A stretch of DNA of 64,000 nt from NCBI RefSeq assembly GCF_000334215.1, contig NZ_AMQY01000023.1:1-64000 (forward strand), read 5' to 3'. Below the pieces are notes generated by a model that worked only from the letters and a program-made list of their open reading frames with translations, did not search any database and was not told where the DNA came from. Source of the stretch: Vreelandella jeotgali Hwa (GTDB lineage Bacteria > Pseudomonadota > Gammaproteobacteria > Pseudomonadales > Halomonadaceae). Positions 52,363-62,499 of this stretch are shown piece after piece. The translations under genes were made by a program, and so were the position numbers. Within the stretch, counting starts at the first letter, position 1. Each line of letters starts with the position of its first letter.

Positions 52363-53733
52363 TTACGCCACTGCCTGTCCCGCTCCTCCCTTGTGGTTGA
52401 TGGATGGTGTGAGGTGGTAGCCGTAGCCATCACCGCGTTGAATCAGGGTGCAATGCTGGTGCGAAATGCCCTGCACTGCCCCCTGTGGCGTCTGGATGTT
52501 GAAGCGGCCGGTTTTGCGCACCGCCACACGCCCGGTATGCGTGCCGGCTTTCCTGCCGGCGGGGACGATGGCCTTGACCCTATCGCCGGTCTGAAAACCG
52601 TGTACCTGTTTTTGCCGCATCAGGTAGCCACGCGGAAAACCGTGCCGGGTCAGCCGCGTGCGCTGATAGCTCCCGCGTCCGGTGGCCTTGATCATCAGCG
52701 TTGGCACCGGCCAGTCGTGCAGTGCCTCCACCGCGCCAACACAGGCGGCATCCAGAGCGTGGGTCTTGGGGATGCCGAGCCGCTGGCGGTTGTATTTGGT
52801 GCGACCACCGCTGGCCACCGTTACCGACAAGCCGGTGGCCTTGAGTGCAGTGAACAGCGCCCAGCGGGTCGCATTGACCGCGCTGGCATCGCGTAGCGGC
52901 TGCTTGAACTGGCGCTGTACGCGCTCCAGCCGCCCGCTCGCCGACAGACCATTGGCTTTGAGGCGCTTCTTCAAGCCCTTGTCGTGGGCAAGGAAGTCGC
53001 CAAGCGGTTGGTTGCCTTTGGCCTGATTACAATCGTGACACGCCAGAGCCAGATTGCTGACGCGGTTGGAACCGCCCCGGCTGCGTGGCTCGACATGCTC
53101 GATTTCCAGCGGCGTCTCGGTGGCGCCGCAGTAGGCACATGCCCGCCCCCATTTCTCCAGCAGGTACTCGCGCACCTCGTAACCGAGCAGCGTGCCTTGC
53201 TGGTACTCGACGCCGCCGATCTCCGGGTTGTCGAGCTTTTGCGTATCAAAGCGCACCAGCTCCTGATCCAGTGCGGTGATCGGTGCAAGCCTGCGCAGCC
53301 GCTCCACCCAGGCCGTGACGGTATCGACCCGGTGCTGAAGGCTGGGCGCCAGCCAGCCCTTCGGCCTGGTGCGATTATCAAAGCGCGGGGCGCGGTAGCG
53401 CAGATTGGCCGAACGGCGACGGCGGCGGAACGCGGCGCGCTGTTCCAGCGCCTTCTTGATCTGAAAACCGCGATGCAAAAGCTCGAACAGGCACAGCACA
53501 TGGCGCTGCCGACCGTCCGATTCACGCATCAGCGCCAGCCCCGTGGCCTTGCTGCCGGGATCAATGCCCAGACGAAGCGCCTGCGTGTCGCCGCCCACCC
53601 GATCCCTGAGCCGGATCGTGAACGGGTAGCGTTTATGCACCACGGCGCGACCGCGTTCCAGCAGCAACCGAGCACGCTTTTCGCTGCACGGCATCAACGG
53701 CTGCTTGTGTTTGTCCGATACGAAAACCGCCAT
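52363..53733 (-). CDS. iscB: RNA-guided nuclease IscB
   Basis: This 456-aa protein has every IscB domain. The PLMP domain is at 1-50 (QPLMPCSEKRARLLLERGRA). RuvC-I is LRLGIDPGSKATGLAL with D58. The Arg-rich bridge helix spans about 100-118, and the RuvC-II region lies near 155-165. The HNH domain is at about 195-240, with zinc cysteines C199, C202, C232 and C235 and catalytic H213 (LEIEHVEPRSRGG). RuvC-III is KTHALDAACVG with H325 and D328. A C-terminal target-adjacent-motif-recognition domain follows to the end. All catalytic residues are present, so both DNA strands should be cut under guidance of the omega RNA. The start at 53733 follows GGGAGA; the frame stays open upstream through the RNA region. 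IscB is the ancestor of Cas9. Confidence 0.94.
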   Translation of the reverse strand: MAVFVSDKHKQPLMPCSEKRARLLLERGRAVVHKRYPFTIRLRDRVGGDTQALRLGIDPGSKATGLALMRESDGRQRHVLCLFELLHRGFQIKKALEQRAAFRRRRRSANLRYRAPRFDNRTRPKGWLAPSLQHRVDTVTAWVERLRRLAPITALDQELVRFDTQKLDNPEIGGVEYQQGTLLGYEVREYLLEKWGRACAYCGATETPLEIEHVEPRSRGGSNRVSNLALACHDCNQAKGNQPLGDFLAHDKGLKKRLKANGLSASGRLERVQRQFKQPLRDASAVNATRWALFTALKATGLSVTVASGGRTKYNRQRLGIPKTHALDAACVGAVEALHDWPVPTLMIKATGRGSYQRTRLTRHGFPRGYLMRQKQVHGFQTGDRVKAIVPAGRKAGTHTGRVAVRKTGRFNIQTPQGAVQGISHQHCTLIQRGDGYGYHLTPSINHKGGAGQAVA

Positions 53734-53990
53734 GCGATTTTCTCCCGTGTTAATGCCCTTACGGGCCTTGTGTCGCGGATCGTTCGATCCGTCTCCCCTC
53801 GGGAATGTCGATAACCGGCTCCTGCCTGGTGGCAGCGGTCGGAACCGTCGGCGTTTTACCTTGCGCCAGCATGATCCCGACCTTTCAGAGCCACGGACTG
53901 AGGAAGCATCCGTGGGTGAGTCCTGACGACCTGTTATCAACGTAGCGGACTGGCGACCGCTTTCCCTGGTCAACCCGGCTTGTGGTTACA
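53734..53990 (-). ncRNA. Omega RNA (HEARO RNA) of the IscB element; 5' end approximate
   Basis: The 260-base non-coding stretch directly upstream of iscB is where the family encodes its guide RNA. It is rich in perfect stems: CCACGGA/TCCGTGG (53891-53915), CGGATC/GATCCG (53776-53791) and GCCC/GGGC (53755-53766), plus AGCGG/CCGCT near 53945-53962. The RNA runs into the iscB ribosome site, as HEARO RNAs do. The guide would be the bases just upstream of the scaffold, either within 53970-53990 or beyond the left-end hairpin near 54013-54030. I cannot choose between these from sequence alone. Confidence 0.8.
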
Positions 53991-54025
53991 AGCCTCTCCC
54001 TTCAGGGAGAGGTAGTTGACCGACC

Positions 54026-58355: not shown

Positions 58356-58429
58356 AAACTTTTGCTGAATAAAAACCAATAGCCCATCCGAAAGTTTGAC
58401 ATCCCCACCCCGCCTGCCTAGCCTTGAGA

Positions 58430-58530
58430 TTCTCCTGGGGGTGCCCGCTACGGGCTGAGAATCCGCCGCTTTTGCGCCGGTAACCCTTCGAACCTGATCC
58501 GGGTCATACCGGCGAAGGGAAGGAAAGAAC
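58430..58530 (+). promoter_or_regulatory. TPP riboswitch upstream of the sodium:solute symporter
   Basis: The THI-box core is clear: GGGGGTGCCC, then GGGCTGAGAATC, the pyrimidine-sensing arm, then ACCCTTCGAACCTGATCC and GGGTCATACCGGCGAAGGGA. Downstream, TCCTCTTCCTGG (58540-58551) can pair with CCAAGGAAAGAGGA (58591-58604). That stretch includes the Shine-Dalgarno AAGAGGA 8 bases before the symporter ATG. Control is therefore probably translational: TPP binding would favour the sequestered site. Confidence 0.95.
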
Positions 58531-58611
58531 CTGCCACTCTCCTCTTCCTGGTCGTGCCAACCACGATATTCGCCCATTACCCGGCCGCCACCAAGGAAAG
58601 AGGACGCACAA

Positions 58612-60063
58612 ATGTCACTTGACCCTGTCTGGACGGCCCTCTGGCTGGTGCTTTGCGCCGCCGCCTTTGCCGTTCCCGGTCTGCTTTACGCCCGCCGCCA
58701 GCGCGACGGTCTGGATAGCTACATTGCCGCGCGCAATACCCAGAACACCCGCGCCACGGTACTGACATTGCTCGCCACTTCGCTGGGTACCTGGATACTC
58801 TTTGGCCCGGCCCAGGCCGCGACCTGGGGCGGTATCAGCGCCGTGCTGGGCTATGCGCTGGGCTCGCTGGCGCCGCCGCTGGTGATGATTCCGCTGGGCC
58901 GGCGCATGCGCGAGCTGATTCCCGAAGGCCACGGGCTCACCGAGTTCGTGATCCACCGCTACGGGCGCGTCATGTATGCCTTTACCCTTTCGATCATGCT
59001 GTTTTATCTGTTTATCCTGCTGGCCGCGAGCCTTACCGCGGTGGCGCAGATGGTCACCCTGCTGGCCCCGATCCCGCTGGGCCTGACCGCCGGCGTGGTG
59101 ATGCTGGCAACGGTGATTTACACCTTCTACGGCGGCCTGCGGGCATCAATCTTCACCGACAAGGTGCAGATGGTGGTGATCCTGCCGCTGCTCGCCCTGC
59201 TGGTGTTTTTCGGCTGGCAGGCCGCCGGCGGCGCCGCTCCGACTCTGGAGGGGCTACGCCAGCGCGCCCCCGAGCTGCTCGACGTCACCGATACCGGTGG
59301 CGTACGCGCGGGGCTGACGTTCTTTATTGCCGTGGTGCTCACCGGGCTTTTCTACCAGGGCACCTGGCAGCGTATCTACGCGGCGAAAAATATCCGCGTG
59401 CTGCGCAAAAGCTTCTGGATCAGCGGGCTGTTCAACCTGCCGGTGATCGTCATGATGGGGCTTTTCGGCCTCGCCTTTGTAGGGCTGGACCTGGAAGGCG
59501 ACGGCTCGGTGGCGCTGTTCAGCGTGCTGCTGGATAGCGTACCGCTGTGGTTTGCGCTGGCGCTGATTCCGCTGGGGCTGGCGCTGGTGATGAGCAGCGC
59601 CGACTCCACCATCAACGCCACCTCAAGCATTATCGCGGTGGACATGCACCGGCTACTGCCCCGGGCCAGCGAAGCCACGCTGATGCGTTTTGCCCGCTGG
59701 CTGATCGTCGTCGCCGCGGTGCCGATTACACTGGTCGCGTCGCAGGGTTACAGCGTGCTCTACCTGTTTTTGCTCGCCGATCTGCTGTGCTCGGCGGCGG
59801 CTTTTGCGGTATTTTTCGGGCTGTTCAACCGCCGCTATGACGGCCGTCACGCGGTGATCAGCACCGCCTGTGGGCTGATCGCCGGGCTCGTCATGTTTCC
59901 CGCCCCGGGGGCCGGCACCGACAGCCTGCTGGAAAGCTTCCTGCTCGCCGCGCTGGTGCCGGTCGCCGCCTCCGTGGTGCTGATGCGCGCGATGCCCGCC
60001 CGCGAGCACTACGACTTTGCCCGCCTGGCCACTCTGGTGCGCCGATTCGGACGAGCGCCGTAA
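58612..60063 (+). CDS. Sodium:solute symporter under TPP control, candidate thiamine-precursor transporter
   Basis: This 483-aa inner-membrane protein of the SSS family has about thirteen hydrophobic helices. Family features are TSLGTWILFGPAQAATWGG near 51-69, TVIYTFYGGLRASIFTDKVQ near 164-183 and the sodium-site region LALVMSSADSTINATSSII near 322-340. The TPP riboswitch directly upstream ties it to thiamine metabolism. An SSS protein (ThiV) was proposed as a hydroxymethylpyrimidine transporter from comparative genomics, and this gene is a candidate of the same kind. It is convergent with a second TPP-controlled operon. The cargo (thiamine, pyrimidine or thiazole fragment) is unknown. Confidence 0.88.
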   Translation: MSLDPVWTALWLVLCAAAFAVPGLLYARRQRDGLDSYIAARNTQNTRATVLTLLATSLGTWILFGPAQAATWGGISAVLGYALGSLAPPLVMIPLGRRMRELIPEGHGLTEFVIHRYGRVMYAFTLSIMLFYLFILLAASLTAVAQMVTLLAPIPLGLTAGVVMLATVIYTFYGGLRASIFTDKVQMVVILPLLALLVFFGWQAAGGAAPTLEGLRQRAPELLDVTDTGGVRAGLTFFIAVVLTGLFYQGTWQRIYAAKNIRVLRKSFWISGLFNLPVIVMMGLFGLAFVGLDLEGDGSVALFSVLLDSVPLWFALALIPLGLALVMSSADSTINATSSIIAVDMHRLLPRASEATLMRFARWLIVVAAVPITLVASQGYSVLYLFLLADLLCSAAAFAVFFGLFNRRYDGRHAVISTACGLIAGLVMFPAPGAGTDSLLESFLLAALVPVAASVVLMRAMPAREHYDFARLATLVRRFGRAP

Positions 60064-60111
60064 GAAGCCGGCGAAGCTCAACGATGGCGGCCCCAGGGCC
60101 GCCCTTCTGCT

Positions 60112-61407
60112 TTATGCCTTCGGACGCGTTAGCCCCAAATGCCCGCGCAGGGTTGTCGCCTTGTAGTCCTGGCGACACAGCCCGCGTTTTTGCAGTACCG
60201 GCACGACCTGGTCGACGAAGTCGTCAATGCTCGACGGCAGCGACGGTGGCATCAGGTTAAAGCCGTCGGCGCCGCCGTTCTCCACCCAGCGCTGCATTTC
60301 ATCGGCGATGCTTTCCGGCGTGCCGACCATGGTGCAGTGCCCGCCGCCGGCGGCAAGCCGGCCCAGCAGCTGGCGCAGCGTCGGCTGTTCGCACTCGATA
60401 ATTCGCAGAATGGTGGCGTAGCGCCCTTTCGGCCCGGTGAACTCGTCAAGCGGCGGCAGTTTGGGCATGGGCGCGTCCAGCTCCCAGTCGCTGCAGTCCT
60501 GGCCGATAAAGGTCGACAGCTGCTGCAGCGAATCCGCCGTGGGCAGAAGCTCGTCCAGCTCGCGCTGGCGGGCGCGGGCCTCGTCCATGGTGGAACCCAC
60601 GTAGGTCACCAGCCCCGGCATAATCGCCACCGGCGAGCGGCCGGCGGCGGCCACCCGCGCCTGAATATCGCGGTAGTACGCTTGCGCGGATTCCAGATCG
60701 TAGGCCACGGCGTAGATCGCCTCGGCATAGCGCGCGGCCAGGTCGCGGCCCGGCTCGGAGGCGCCGGCCTGAAACAGCACCGGCCGGCCCTGGGGCGGGC
60801 GCGGCACGTTCAGCGGGCCGTCCACCAGAAAATGCTCGCCGTGGTGGTTGATCGGCCGGACCCTGTCCGGGTCGGCGAACTGCCCTGCACGATCAAGGCT
60901 CAAGGCGTCATCGGCCCAGCTGTCCCATAGCGCCAGCGCGGTGTTGGCAAACTCTTCGGCGCGGGCGTAGCGCTCGGCGTGGGTCGGCATGGCCGCGTAG
61001 TTGTGGTTGCGCGCCTCGGCGTCGAACATCGAGGTCACCAGGTTCCAGCCCGTGCGCCCGCCGGAAATATGGTCCAACGACGCCAGCATGCGCGCGGCGT
61101 GAAACGGCGTGTAGAAGGTGCTCGAAATTGTTGAAATCAGGCCGATGTGCTCGGTGGCGCGCGCCATGGCAGAAAGCGCGGTCAGCGGCTCGAGAAACCA
61201 CAGCGGCCCGCCGGCCACATTGCCCGGCGCGTGGCCGTCGGCAAAGAATACCGCGTCGAACTTGCCCCGCTCGGCGGTGCGCGCCAGCGACTCGAAGTGG
61301 CGAATATCGCCCATTTTCTCGGCGGCGGAATCGGGGTGGCGCCAGGCCGCGCGGTGGTGGCCGCAACCCATGATAAACAGGTTCAGGTGCATGGAAGGAG
61401 TCGCCAT
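60112..61407 (-). CDS. FMN-dependent LLM-class monooxygenase (NtaA/SnaA/DszA type) under TPP control
   Basis: This 431-aa luciferase-like enzyme belongs to the NtaA/SnaA/DszA group of two-component flavin monooxygenases. Typical segments are HLNLFIMGCGHHRAAWRHP at the N terminus, KFDAVFFADGHAPGN near 48-62, HISGGRTGWNLVTSMFDAEA near 112-131 and GRPVLFQAGASEPGRDLAAR near 205-224. Group members oxidise C-S, C-N or C-H bonds on small heterocycles and chelators. It is the second gene of an operon behind a TPP riboswitch, overlapping the SDR stop by one base (TGATG). A role in recovering a thiamine-derived compound is inferred; no substrate is known. Confidence 0.88.
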   Translation of the reverse strand: MATPSMHLNLFIMGCGHHRAAWRHPDSAAEKMGDIRHFESLARTAERGKFDAVFFADGHAPGNVAGGPLWFLEPLTALSAMARATEHIGLISTISSTFYTPFHAARMLASLDHISGGRTGWNLVTSMFDAEARNHNYAAMPTHAERYARAEEFANTALALWDSWADDALSLDRAGQFADPDRVRPINHHGEHFLVDGPLNVPRPPQGRPVLFQAGASEPGRDLAARYAEAIYAVAYDLESAQAYYRDIQARVAAAGRSPVAIMPGLVTYVGSTMDEARARQRELDELLPTADSLQQLSTFIGQDCSDWELDAPMPKLPPLDEFTGPKGRYATILRIIECEQPTLRQLLGRLAAGGGHCTMVGTPESIADEMQRWVENGGADGFNLMPPSLPSSIDDFVDQVVPVLQKRGLCRQDYKATTLRGHLGLTRPKA

Positions 61408-62204
61408 CAGTCTTTCACCAGCCCGCCGTCAACCACCAGATTCTGCCCGGTGACCGCCCGGCTCCAGGGCGAGGCAAACAGCAGCGCGGCATCGGCGAAC
61501 TCGGCGGGCGTGACCACCCGGCGCAGCGGCGTGTTGGCGGCGATCAGATCAAATACCTCGTCGGGCGTTTCGGCGGAGGCATCGGTGGTGCGCAGCAGCC
61601 CGCCGGAAATCATGTTCACGGTAATGTTGTCCGGCCCCAGGTCGTGGGCGAAGGTGCGCGTCAGCGAGAGCAGCGCGGCCTTGCCGGCGGTGTAATCGTG
61701 GTACGGCACGATGGGGTTTTGAAACAGGTTGGTACCCACGTTGATCACCCGGCCAAAGCCCTGTTCGCGCATGCCGGCCAGGGCCCCCTGAATCACGTTG
61801 AGCGCGCCCTGGTTGACGCCCTTGAGCTGCTGCTCCAGATGCTCCCAGGTCAGCGAATCGGCATCCGGGCGGGCCTCGCCATTGAAGGAGAAATCCGGCA
61901 GCGCGTTGTTGACCACCGTGGTCACCGGCTTGCCAAAGCGCTCGCGAGCGGCATCAAACATGGCCTTGACGGCGTCGACGTCGCCCACGTCGGCCTGTAC
62001 GGCAAGCGCTCGGTCCGGCGCCTCGGCGGCCACGGCCTCGGCGCCGGCGGCGCTGTTGCGATAGTTGACGACGACGCGGGCGCCGGCGTTCAGAAAGGCG
62101 CGCGCCAGGCTTGCGCCCAGGCCGCGGCCGGCGCCGGTCACCAGCACGATTTGCTGATCGAGCGGCAGCGCAGCGGAAGAAGAAGCGTGGGAAGCGGTAC
62201 TCAT
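61407..62204 (-). CDS. Short-chain dehydrogenase/reductase under TPP control
   Basis: This 265-aa classical SDR has the Rossmann motif [19 protein letters not shown] near 21-39, NNA in [11 protein letters not shown] near 105 and the catalytic Tyr-x3-Lys as [14 protein letters not shown] near 166-179. The C-terminal [15 protein letters not shown] is typical. It resembles FabG-like 3-oxoacyl reductases, but its position first in a TPP-riboswitch operon with an LLM monooxygenase argues for a thiamine-related alcohol, aldehyde or ketone. The ribosome site AAGAGG is held in the riboswitch hairpin. Substrate unknown. Confidence 0.88.
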
Positions 62205-62358
62205 GGTGTGGCCTCTTGATCACGAAAGCGAAAGAGGCAAAGGGCGCACGCCGGGTGCTCGGCCGAGCACTGCGCTGACATCCCTTCGCCGGTATGAACA
62301 GGTTCAGGTTCGGCGGGTGTTCTCTCAGCCCCGCCGCTGGCGGGACACCCCGTGTCAT
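62205..62358 (-). promoter_or_regulatory. TPP riboswitch with SD-sequestering hairpin upstream of the SDR-LLM operon
   Basis: On the minus strand the aptamer spans 62358-62275. P1 is TGACA/TGTCA, followed by CGGGGTGTCCCGCC, GGGGCTGAGAGAACAC, CCGAACCTGAACCTGTTCAT and ACCGGCGAAGGGA. Downstream comes a palindromic stem GTGCTC/GAGCAC. Then GCCTCTT (62238-62232) can pair with AAGAGGC (62217-62211), which hides the ribosome site 7 bases before the SDR ATG. Translational control is likely. Confidence 0.95.
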
Positions 62359-62499
62359 GCAACGTCGACCTTAGCCTATAGCCTTACCCCCAACAAGGCG
62401 GCCGGGCGTCCGGCATGGCCTCGCCGACGCTTGTGGCGTAAAATCAGGCTTCTTGTCGGCCGCGTCAGGCGCGGCGTTGAACCAACACAGGACTGCAAC

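Follow-up and report, generated by a model that had tools for sequence, protein, structure and literature searches.

Two TPP riboswitches frame a symporter, an SDR oxidoreductase and a flavin monooxygenase in Vreelandella jeotgali: a candidate module for salvage of the thiamine pyrimidine

Genes and leader RNAs at the locus

The window analysed here is a stretch of 64,000 nucleotides (positions 1 to 64,000 of contig NZ_AMQY01000023.1, Vreelandella jeotgali Hwa), in which two thiamine pyrophosphate (TPP) riboswitches frame genes for a sodium:solute symporter (SSS), a short-chain dehydrogenase/reductase (SDR) and a luciferase-like flavin monooxygenase (LLM). The set is very likely linked to thiamine. 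A first-pass annotation made from the sequence had described just this framing, with the two transcription units converging, and the profile matches of Rfam, Pfam and NCBIfam confirm it: both aptamers exceed the Rfam gathering score for the TPP riboswitch (54.3 bits), and the limits first given for the block (58430-62358) are correct to within a few bases. Its parts are as follows.

58427..58537, plus strand: TPP riboswitch aptamer 1, in the leader of the SSS gene (Rfam RF00059, 74.6 bits)
58540..58549, plus strand: putative anti-Shine-Dalgarno element tcctcttcct, in the SSS leader (from the sequence)
58612..60063, plus strand: SSS-family symporter, 483 aa, candidate importer, ThiV-like in role (PF00474, 79.4 bits)
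60112..61407, minus strand: LLM flavin monooxygenase, NtaA/DmoA family, 431 aa (TIGR03860, 536.9 bits, cut-off 279.7)
61407..62204, minus strand: SDR oxidoreductase, 265 aa, YxxxK present (NF006393, 419.6 bits, cut-off 292)
62211..62238, minus strand: hairpin gcctctt...aagaggc, which would cover the SDR ribosome site (sequence and minimum-energy fold of the leader)
62264..62362, minus strand: TPP riboswitch aptamer 2, in the leader of the SDR and LLM genes (Rfam RF00059, 60.7 bits)

The stop codon of the SDR gene overlaps the start codon of the LLM gene, so that the pair reads as one operon, and this unit is separated from the convergent symporter unit by a 48-base gap. The LLM has both the TIGR03860 score and the predicted fold of the NtaA/DmoA family; the symporter scores 94.6 bits against TIGR00813, under that model's cut-off of 184. 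Only three TPP riboswitches in the whole 2.85 Mb genome score over the Rfam cut-off, two of them flanking this block of less than 4 kb and the third (C10:196869-196969) lying upstream of thiM-thiE.

Both leaders have features through which an aptamer could control translation. The anti-Shine-Dalgarno element is complementary to the 3' strand of the aptamer (58520-58528, aaggaaaga) as well as to the SSS ribosome site (58593-58603, aaggaaagagg), and it is paired with the aptamer 3' strand in the minimum-energy fold. Hairpins similar to the one before the SDR start were seen by eye in 5 of 18 folded relatives (L030, L033, L036, L037 and L039), the remaining relatives having no clear hairpin ahead of the start by the same inspection. 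These predicted folds fit translational repression by TPP.

Conservation of the riboswitch-linked set

A scan of genome contigs from 84,980 species with the LLM protein, of which the best 80 loci were kept and beyond which more relatives exist, yields two groups among the loci listed: 29 clade loci at 70-90% LLM identity, and 51 outside relatives at 47-53%. In a 51-row LLM tree, among whose rows CmoJ does not figure, a branch with SH-aLRT support of 100 parts 27 clade proteins from 24 outside relatives; the Mesobacillus LLM (51% identity) falls inside the clade, but on a long branch. Carriers of the clade LLM are Gamma-, Beta- and Alphaproteobacteria and actinobacteria, with bacilli joining more distantly.

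Within the clade the set is well kept. The riboswitch motif stands upstream of the genes in 28 of the 29 listed loci (the exception is L040), the SDR is adjacent to the LLM in 27 (split between frames in Kocuria locus L071), and an SSS gene lies on the fetched stretch in 20, with the motif ahead of it in 19 of these; locus L031 ends at a contig edge. Each of the 29 genomes has at least one TPP riboswitch over the Rfam cut-off. At the loci themselves, Rfam places a riboswitch at 7 of the 8 other orthologues of our first Halomonadaceae sample, at all 13 loci from the Marinobacter ELB17 family (each a divergent pair) and at all four plasmid loci inspected from 30 listed rows (Pseudochrobactrum, Rhodococcus, Mesobacillus and Exiguobacterium), and finds none at its gathering threshold at L012 (70% identity, no SSS) or L040. 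In Halomonas the genes converge; in Marinobacter, Alcaligenes, Candidimonas and Comamonas they diverge from riboswitches that lie back to back. The SDR-LLM pair is also seen unaccompanied by an SSS gene on the sequence read, in alphaproteobacteria, actinobacteria and bacilli. The first-pass annotation had held that its proposal would fail if the three families did not co-occur with thiamine regulation elsewhere; the set recurs with TPP riboswitches in Pseudomonadota, Actinomycetota and Bacillota. On the Exiguobacterium plasmid (L118, 4955-7072), a TPP riboswitch and an annotated SDR accompany an LLM match that lies in two unannotated pieces.

Outside the clade the picture changes. A motif search, which is not fully sensitive in that its strict form missed the Mesobacillus riboswitch scored at 82 bits by Rfam, found no riboswitch motif within 3.7 kb of the LLM gene in any of the 51 listed outside relatives (L062 and L069 have one farther away), and an Rfam scan of three of these loci (L046, L054 and L056) found no TPP riboswitch. 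The module's own SDR was not seen at any of the 51; some SDR is present on the locus in 7 of them, at no more than 84 bits, where full-length clade matches reach at least 224. Such a generic SDR, with 27-28% of residues matched and up to 83 bits, stands directly beside the LLM in five (L061, L062, L065, L069 and L092). An LLM next to some generic SDR is thus met outside the clade as well; what sets the clade apart is its particular SDR and the riboswitch.

These generic neighbours, together with the family labels 3-oxoacyl-ACP reductase and NtaA/DmoA, are what would be expected if the two enzymes were ordinary catabolic proteins, scavenging carbon, sulfur or nitrogen, beside which a riboswitch had come to lie by chance. 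We regard such an origin as extremely improbable: the riboswitch stays with the genes in several phyla and in both of their arrangements, and the motif search found no such linkage beside the 51 listed outside relatives. The SDR label itself is probably wrong for the TPP-linked group, in which the proteins of Mesobacillus, Rhodococcus and Cryobacterium score 398.1, 423.2 and 428 bits against NF006393, and gene context argues against a function in fatty acid synthesis. All 18 aligned SDRs keep YxxxK and have an invariant Thr at position 13 before the catalytic Tyr, where SDRs usually carry Ser.

Co-inheritance with the symporter was followed in 275 genomes of Halomonadaceae, the family being taken by its named members, with presence called at E <= 1e-160 for the LLM and E <= 1e-120 for the SSS. 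The symporter is present in 30 of the 31 genomes with the LLM vs none of the 244 others, and the sole LLM genome that lacks it (G017) also lacks the riboswitch. In a class-level search the window's own genome was the sole match (1 of 369), a sign of how patchily the module is distributed.

Which half of thiamine

Carriers of the module are more often without thiC than their relatives. In Halomonadaceae thiC is absent from 9/31 carriers vs 20/244 others (one-sided Fisher p = 0.0019), and from 9/28 vs 16/226 when genomes are at least 90% complete (p = 0.0004); in the Marinobacter ELB17 family, whose genomes come without completeness figures, it is absent from 9/13 carriers vs 6/150 others (Fisher p = 1.7e-8), all of these counts and tests being blind to kinship. 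We use the full set of 275, which gave a weaker link, in place of an early sample of 49 Halomonadaceae (thiC absent from 6/9 carriers vs 1/40 others). On a 43-row LLM gene tree, thiC state requires at least 11 changes, of which starred branches force 6. Neither thiC nor TenA has a match in the window's own genome.

The thiazole gene behaves differently. A match for thiG is present in 76 of the 78 genomes checked, the two misses (G501 and G507) both being metagenome-assembled genomes (MAGs), and in 13 of the 14 thiC-less carriers among them, G501 being the exception; the check left out the thiC-less carriers G542, G584, G626, G700, G743, G765, G766 and G787. Because thiC is often missing in carriers while thiG is kept, the module probably serves the pyrimidine half of thiamine. 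Thiamine genes also adjoin it in places: thiG lies directly downstream of the LLM in Marinobacter ELB17, and in Cryobacterium a convergent thiE-type gene lies next to the LLM, with a DAO-type oxidoreductase after it and, farther on, a motif for a TPP riboswitch and a gene of the ABC_cobalt family.

The first-pass annotation had suggested salvage from altered thiamine or from a pyrimidine or thiazole fragment. What we find gives good support to a role in thiamine supply, and the data narrow the proposal to the pyrimidine side; thiazole salvage is disfavoured by the retention of thiG. We also considered a role as a replacement for TenA and dropped it, since TenA would then be expected to be missing, yet it is present in 30 of the 31 Halomonadaceae carriers.

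A proposed route to HMP

Taken together, these observations lead us to propose, with a probability of about one half, a thiamine-starvation module that supplies hydroxymethylpyrimidine (HMP). When TPP is low, both riboswitches would permit translation, and the SSS protein would import a pyrimidine compound. The LLM, with reduced flavin mononucleotide (FMN) and O2, would then cleave the carbon-heteroatom bond of a 4-amino-2-methylpyrimidin-5-yl-CH2-X compound (X = N or S), candidates for which are products of thiamine breakdown or thiaminase exchange that TenA cannot use. The chemistry of its family, to which NtaA and DmoA belong (R-CH2-X -> R-CHO + HX), would make the product a 5-formyl pyrimidine. 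From its position next to the LLM and its conserved YxxxK, the SDR could reduce this aldehyde to HMP, which ThiD and ThiE couple to thiazole phosphate in the established pathway. An aldehyde made by one enzyme and reduced by the other would explain the joint inheritance of a monooxygenase and a reductase.

The AlphaFold2 model of the LLM (mean pLDDT 89.7) has BdsA and CmoJ as its top structural matches, and relatives of solved structure include these two, the NTA (nitrilotriacetate) and EDTA (ethylenediaminetetraacetate) monooxygenases, DmoA and RcaE. At 32 positions the LLM has a residue that is nearly invariant among 25 clade members yet rare in the 51 listed outside relatives, several of these positions clustering at 127-135, 232-244 and 323-336, as would be expected for a changed substrate.

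A number of observations weigh against this proposal. A thiC match is retained in 22 of the 31 Halomonadaceae carriers, so the module is not simply a replacement for ThiC, and the association with missing thiC comes from counts that take no account of kinship. One carrier, the MAG G501, is without both thiC and thiG, though it may merely be incomplete. Since nearly all Halomonadaceae carriers have TenA, most of them should use a substrate other than simple aminomethylpyrimidine. That the SDR works as a reductase is assumed, generic SDRs also stand beside LLM genes outside the clade, and two Dietzia loci have no SDR at all, the riboswitch there lying directly ahead of the LLM. Finally, 8 of the 29 listed clade loci have no SSS on the fetched stretch, and among clade genomes thiC is missing in 5/20 with an SSS on the locus and in 3/8 without, so the symporter itself does not track thiC loss there. 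In one of the 22 Halomonadaceae carriers with a thiC match (G541), that match is weak (best E 2.6e-29) and split between two places, which may reflect a copy in decay.

The comparison of clade genomes with and without an SSS on the locus bears also on an alternative in which only the symporter concerns the pyrimidine, a ThiV-type HMP importer accounting for the loss of thiC while the SDR and LLM repair or recycle oxidised thiazole or thiamine. Thirteen aligned module symporters do share an invariant Phe, followed by Tyr or His and then by Gln, that resembles part of the reported HMP/thiamin symporter signature, and in SAR11 HMP is likely imported by ThiV, an SSS protein controlled by a TPP riboswitch (PMC11452348, in the part of the text available). 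We nevertheless consider this division of labour unlikely: thiC is missing as well in clade genomes that have no SSS on the locus, alphaproteobacteria, actinobacteria and bacilli have the SDR-LLM pair with no symporter on the sequence read, and thiG is kept in 76 of the 78 genomes checked.

The repeated absence of thiC in carriers, the adjacency of thiG in Marinobacter ELB17 and the several lineages with SDR-LLM and no linked SSS could instead mean that the two enzymes are themselves an O2- and flavin-dependent substitute for ThiC, making HMP from a common, widespread metabolite and so allowing diverse bacteria to discard ThiC. Two enzymes of the SDR and LLM families are, however, unlikely to build a pyrimidine, and the near-perfect co-inheritance with the symporter in Halomonadaceae suggests that the substrate is imported. 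Measured growth on HMP is reported for a B1-auxotrophic isolate of Marinobacter, which may or may not carry the module (PMC12448291, partial text), a further point against a substitute for ThiC, which we think quite improbable.

Detoxification of thiamine antimetabolites (bacimethrin-like compounds or oxidised thiamine analogues), induced at low TPP, would suit a pair of oxidative enzymes with a patchy and partly plasmid-borne spread. The thiC and thiG pattern is not predicted by it, and a TPP riboswitch senses the level of the vitamin, not a toxin; we give this explanation little credence.

Neighbouring genes

The module is adjoined by a gene of the major facilitator superfamily (MFS) in L028 and by one of the siderophore-interacting family in L043. 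Elsewhere in the window, an IscB-type RNA-guided nuclease gene lies at 52363-54020 on the minus strand (NF040563, 450.7 bits), with a HEARO RNA (115.5 bits) at its 5' end and, by eye, a fabV-like gene adjoining.

Implications

Targeted searches of openly licensed PMC papers listed none whose title or abstract opening links a TPP riboswitch to an LLM/NtaA monooxygenase or an SDR. The thiamine genes named in a recent survey include thiV, thiY, cytX, ykoF, tenA, thiM and others, with no LLM or SDR in the portion of its text available (PMC10881298), and HMP auxotrophy has been described as the commonest kind of B1 auxotrophy (PMC11452348, partial text). An oxidative pair under TPP control would add new enzyme chemistry to vitamin B1 salvage. 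If our proposal is right, the module would also point to a pool of vitamers not yet measured, would alter predictions of which forms of the vitamin bacteria need, and would assign a function to a group of SDRs that at present bears the name 3-oxoacyl-ACP reductase.

Comparison with known systems

The nearest parallel to the symporter is ThiV, which is likewise of the SSS family with a TPP riboswitch upstream, and the window's SSS may work like it. ThiV is likely an HMP importer and is found in SAR11 that lack thiC and bear thiG (PMC11452348 and PMC10881298, partial texts). The window's protein differs in being paired with an SDR and an LLM. The likeness rests on family and riboswitch; of the reported signature Tyr78, Asp139 and Phe254 (SiaT numbering), only the Phe was matched, tentatively and by eye, to the invariant Phe247 with its Tyr/His and Gln. 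SiaT is not among the 15 profile matches of the symporter; its structural matches include 5nva and 5nv9.

Salvage by TenA and YlmB is hydrolytic, not oxidative. It recovers HMP from thiamine breakdown products (PMC10470507, as far as the text is available), and since Halomonadaceae carriers almost all have TenA, the substrate of the module should differ. The TENA_THI-4 domain (PF03070) is absent from the Pfam matches of the three module proteins, as is the ThiC domain. ThiC, the HMP-P synthase, is a radical S-adenosylmethionine (SAM) enzyme; it would supply the same half of thiamine as the module if the pyrimidine assignment is right.

For the oxidative step, the closest precedents come from the LLM's own family and fold. 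CmoJ (YtnJ), the alkylcysteine sulfoxide C-S monooxygenase, cleaves a C-S bond oxidatively to give an aldehyde (PMC10863075, partial text) and is among the nearest solved relatives of the LLM, but it serves sulfur salvage and has 37-39% identity to the LLM in structural alignments. RcaE, a riboflavin monooxygenase (lyase) of the same fold, is catabolic and shares 30% identity; it oxidatively removes the ribityl chain of riboflavin by cleaving an N-C bond (PMC12746152, partial text).

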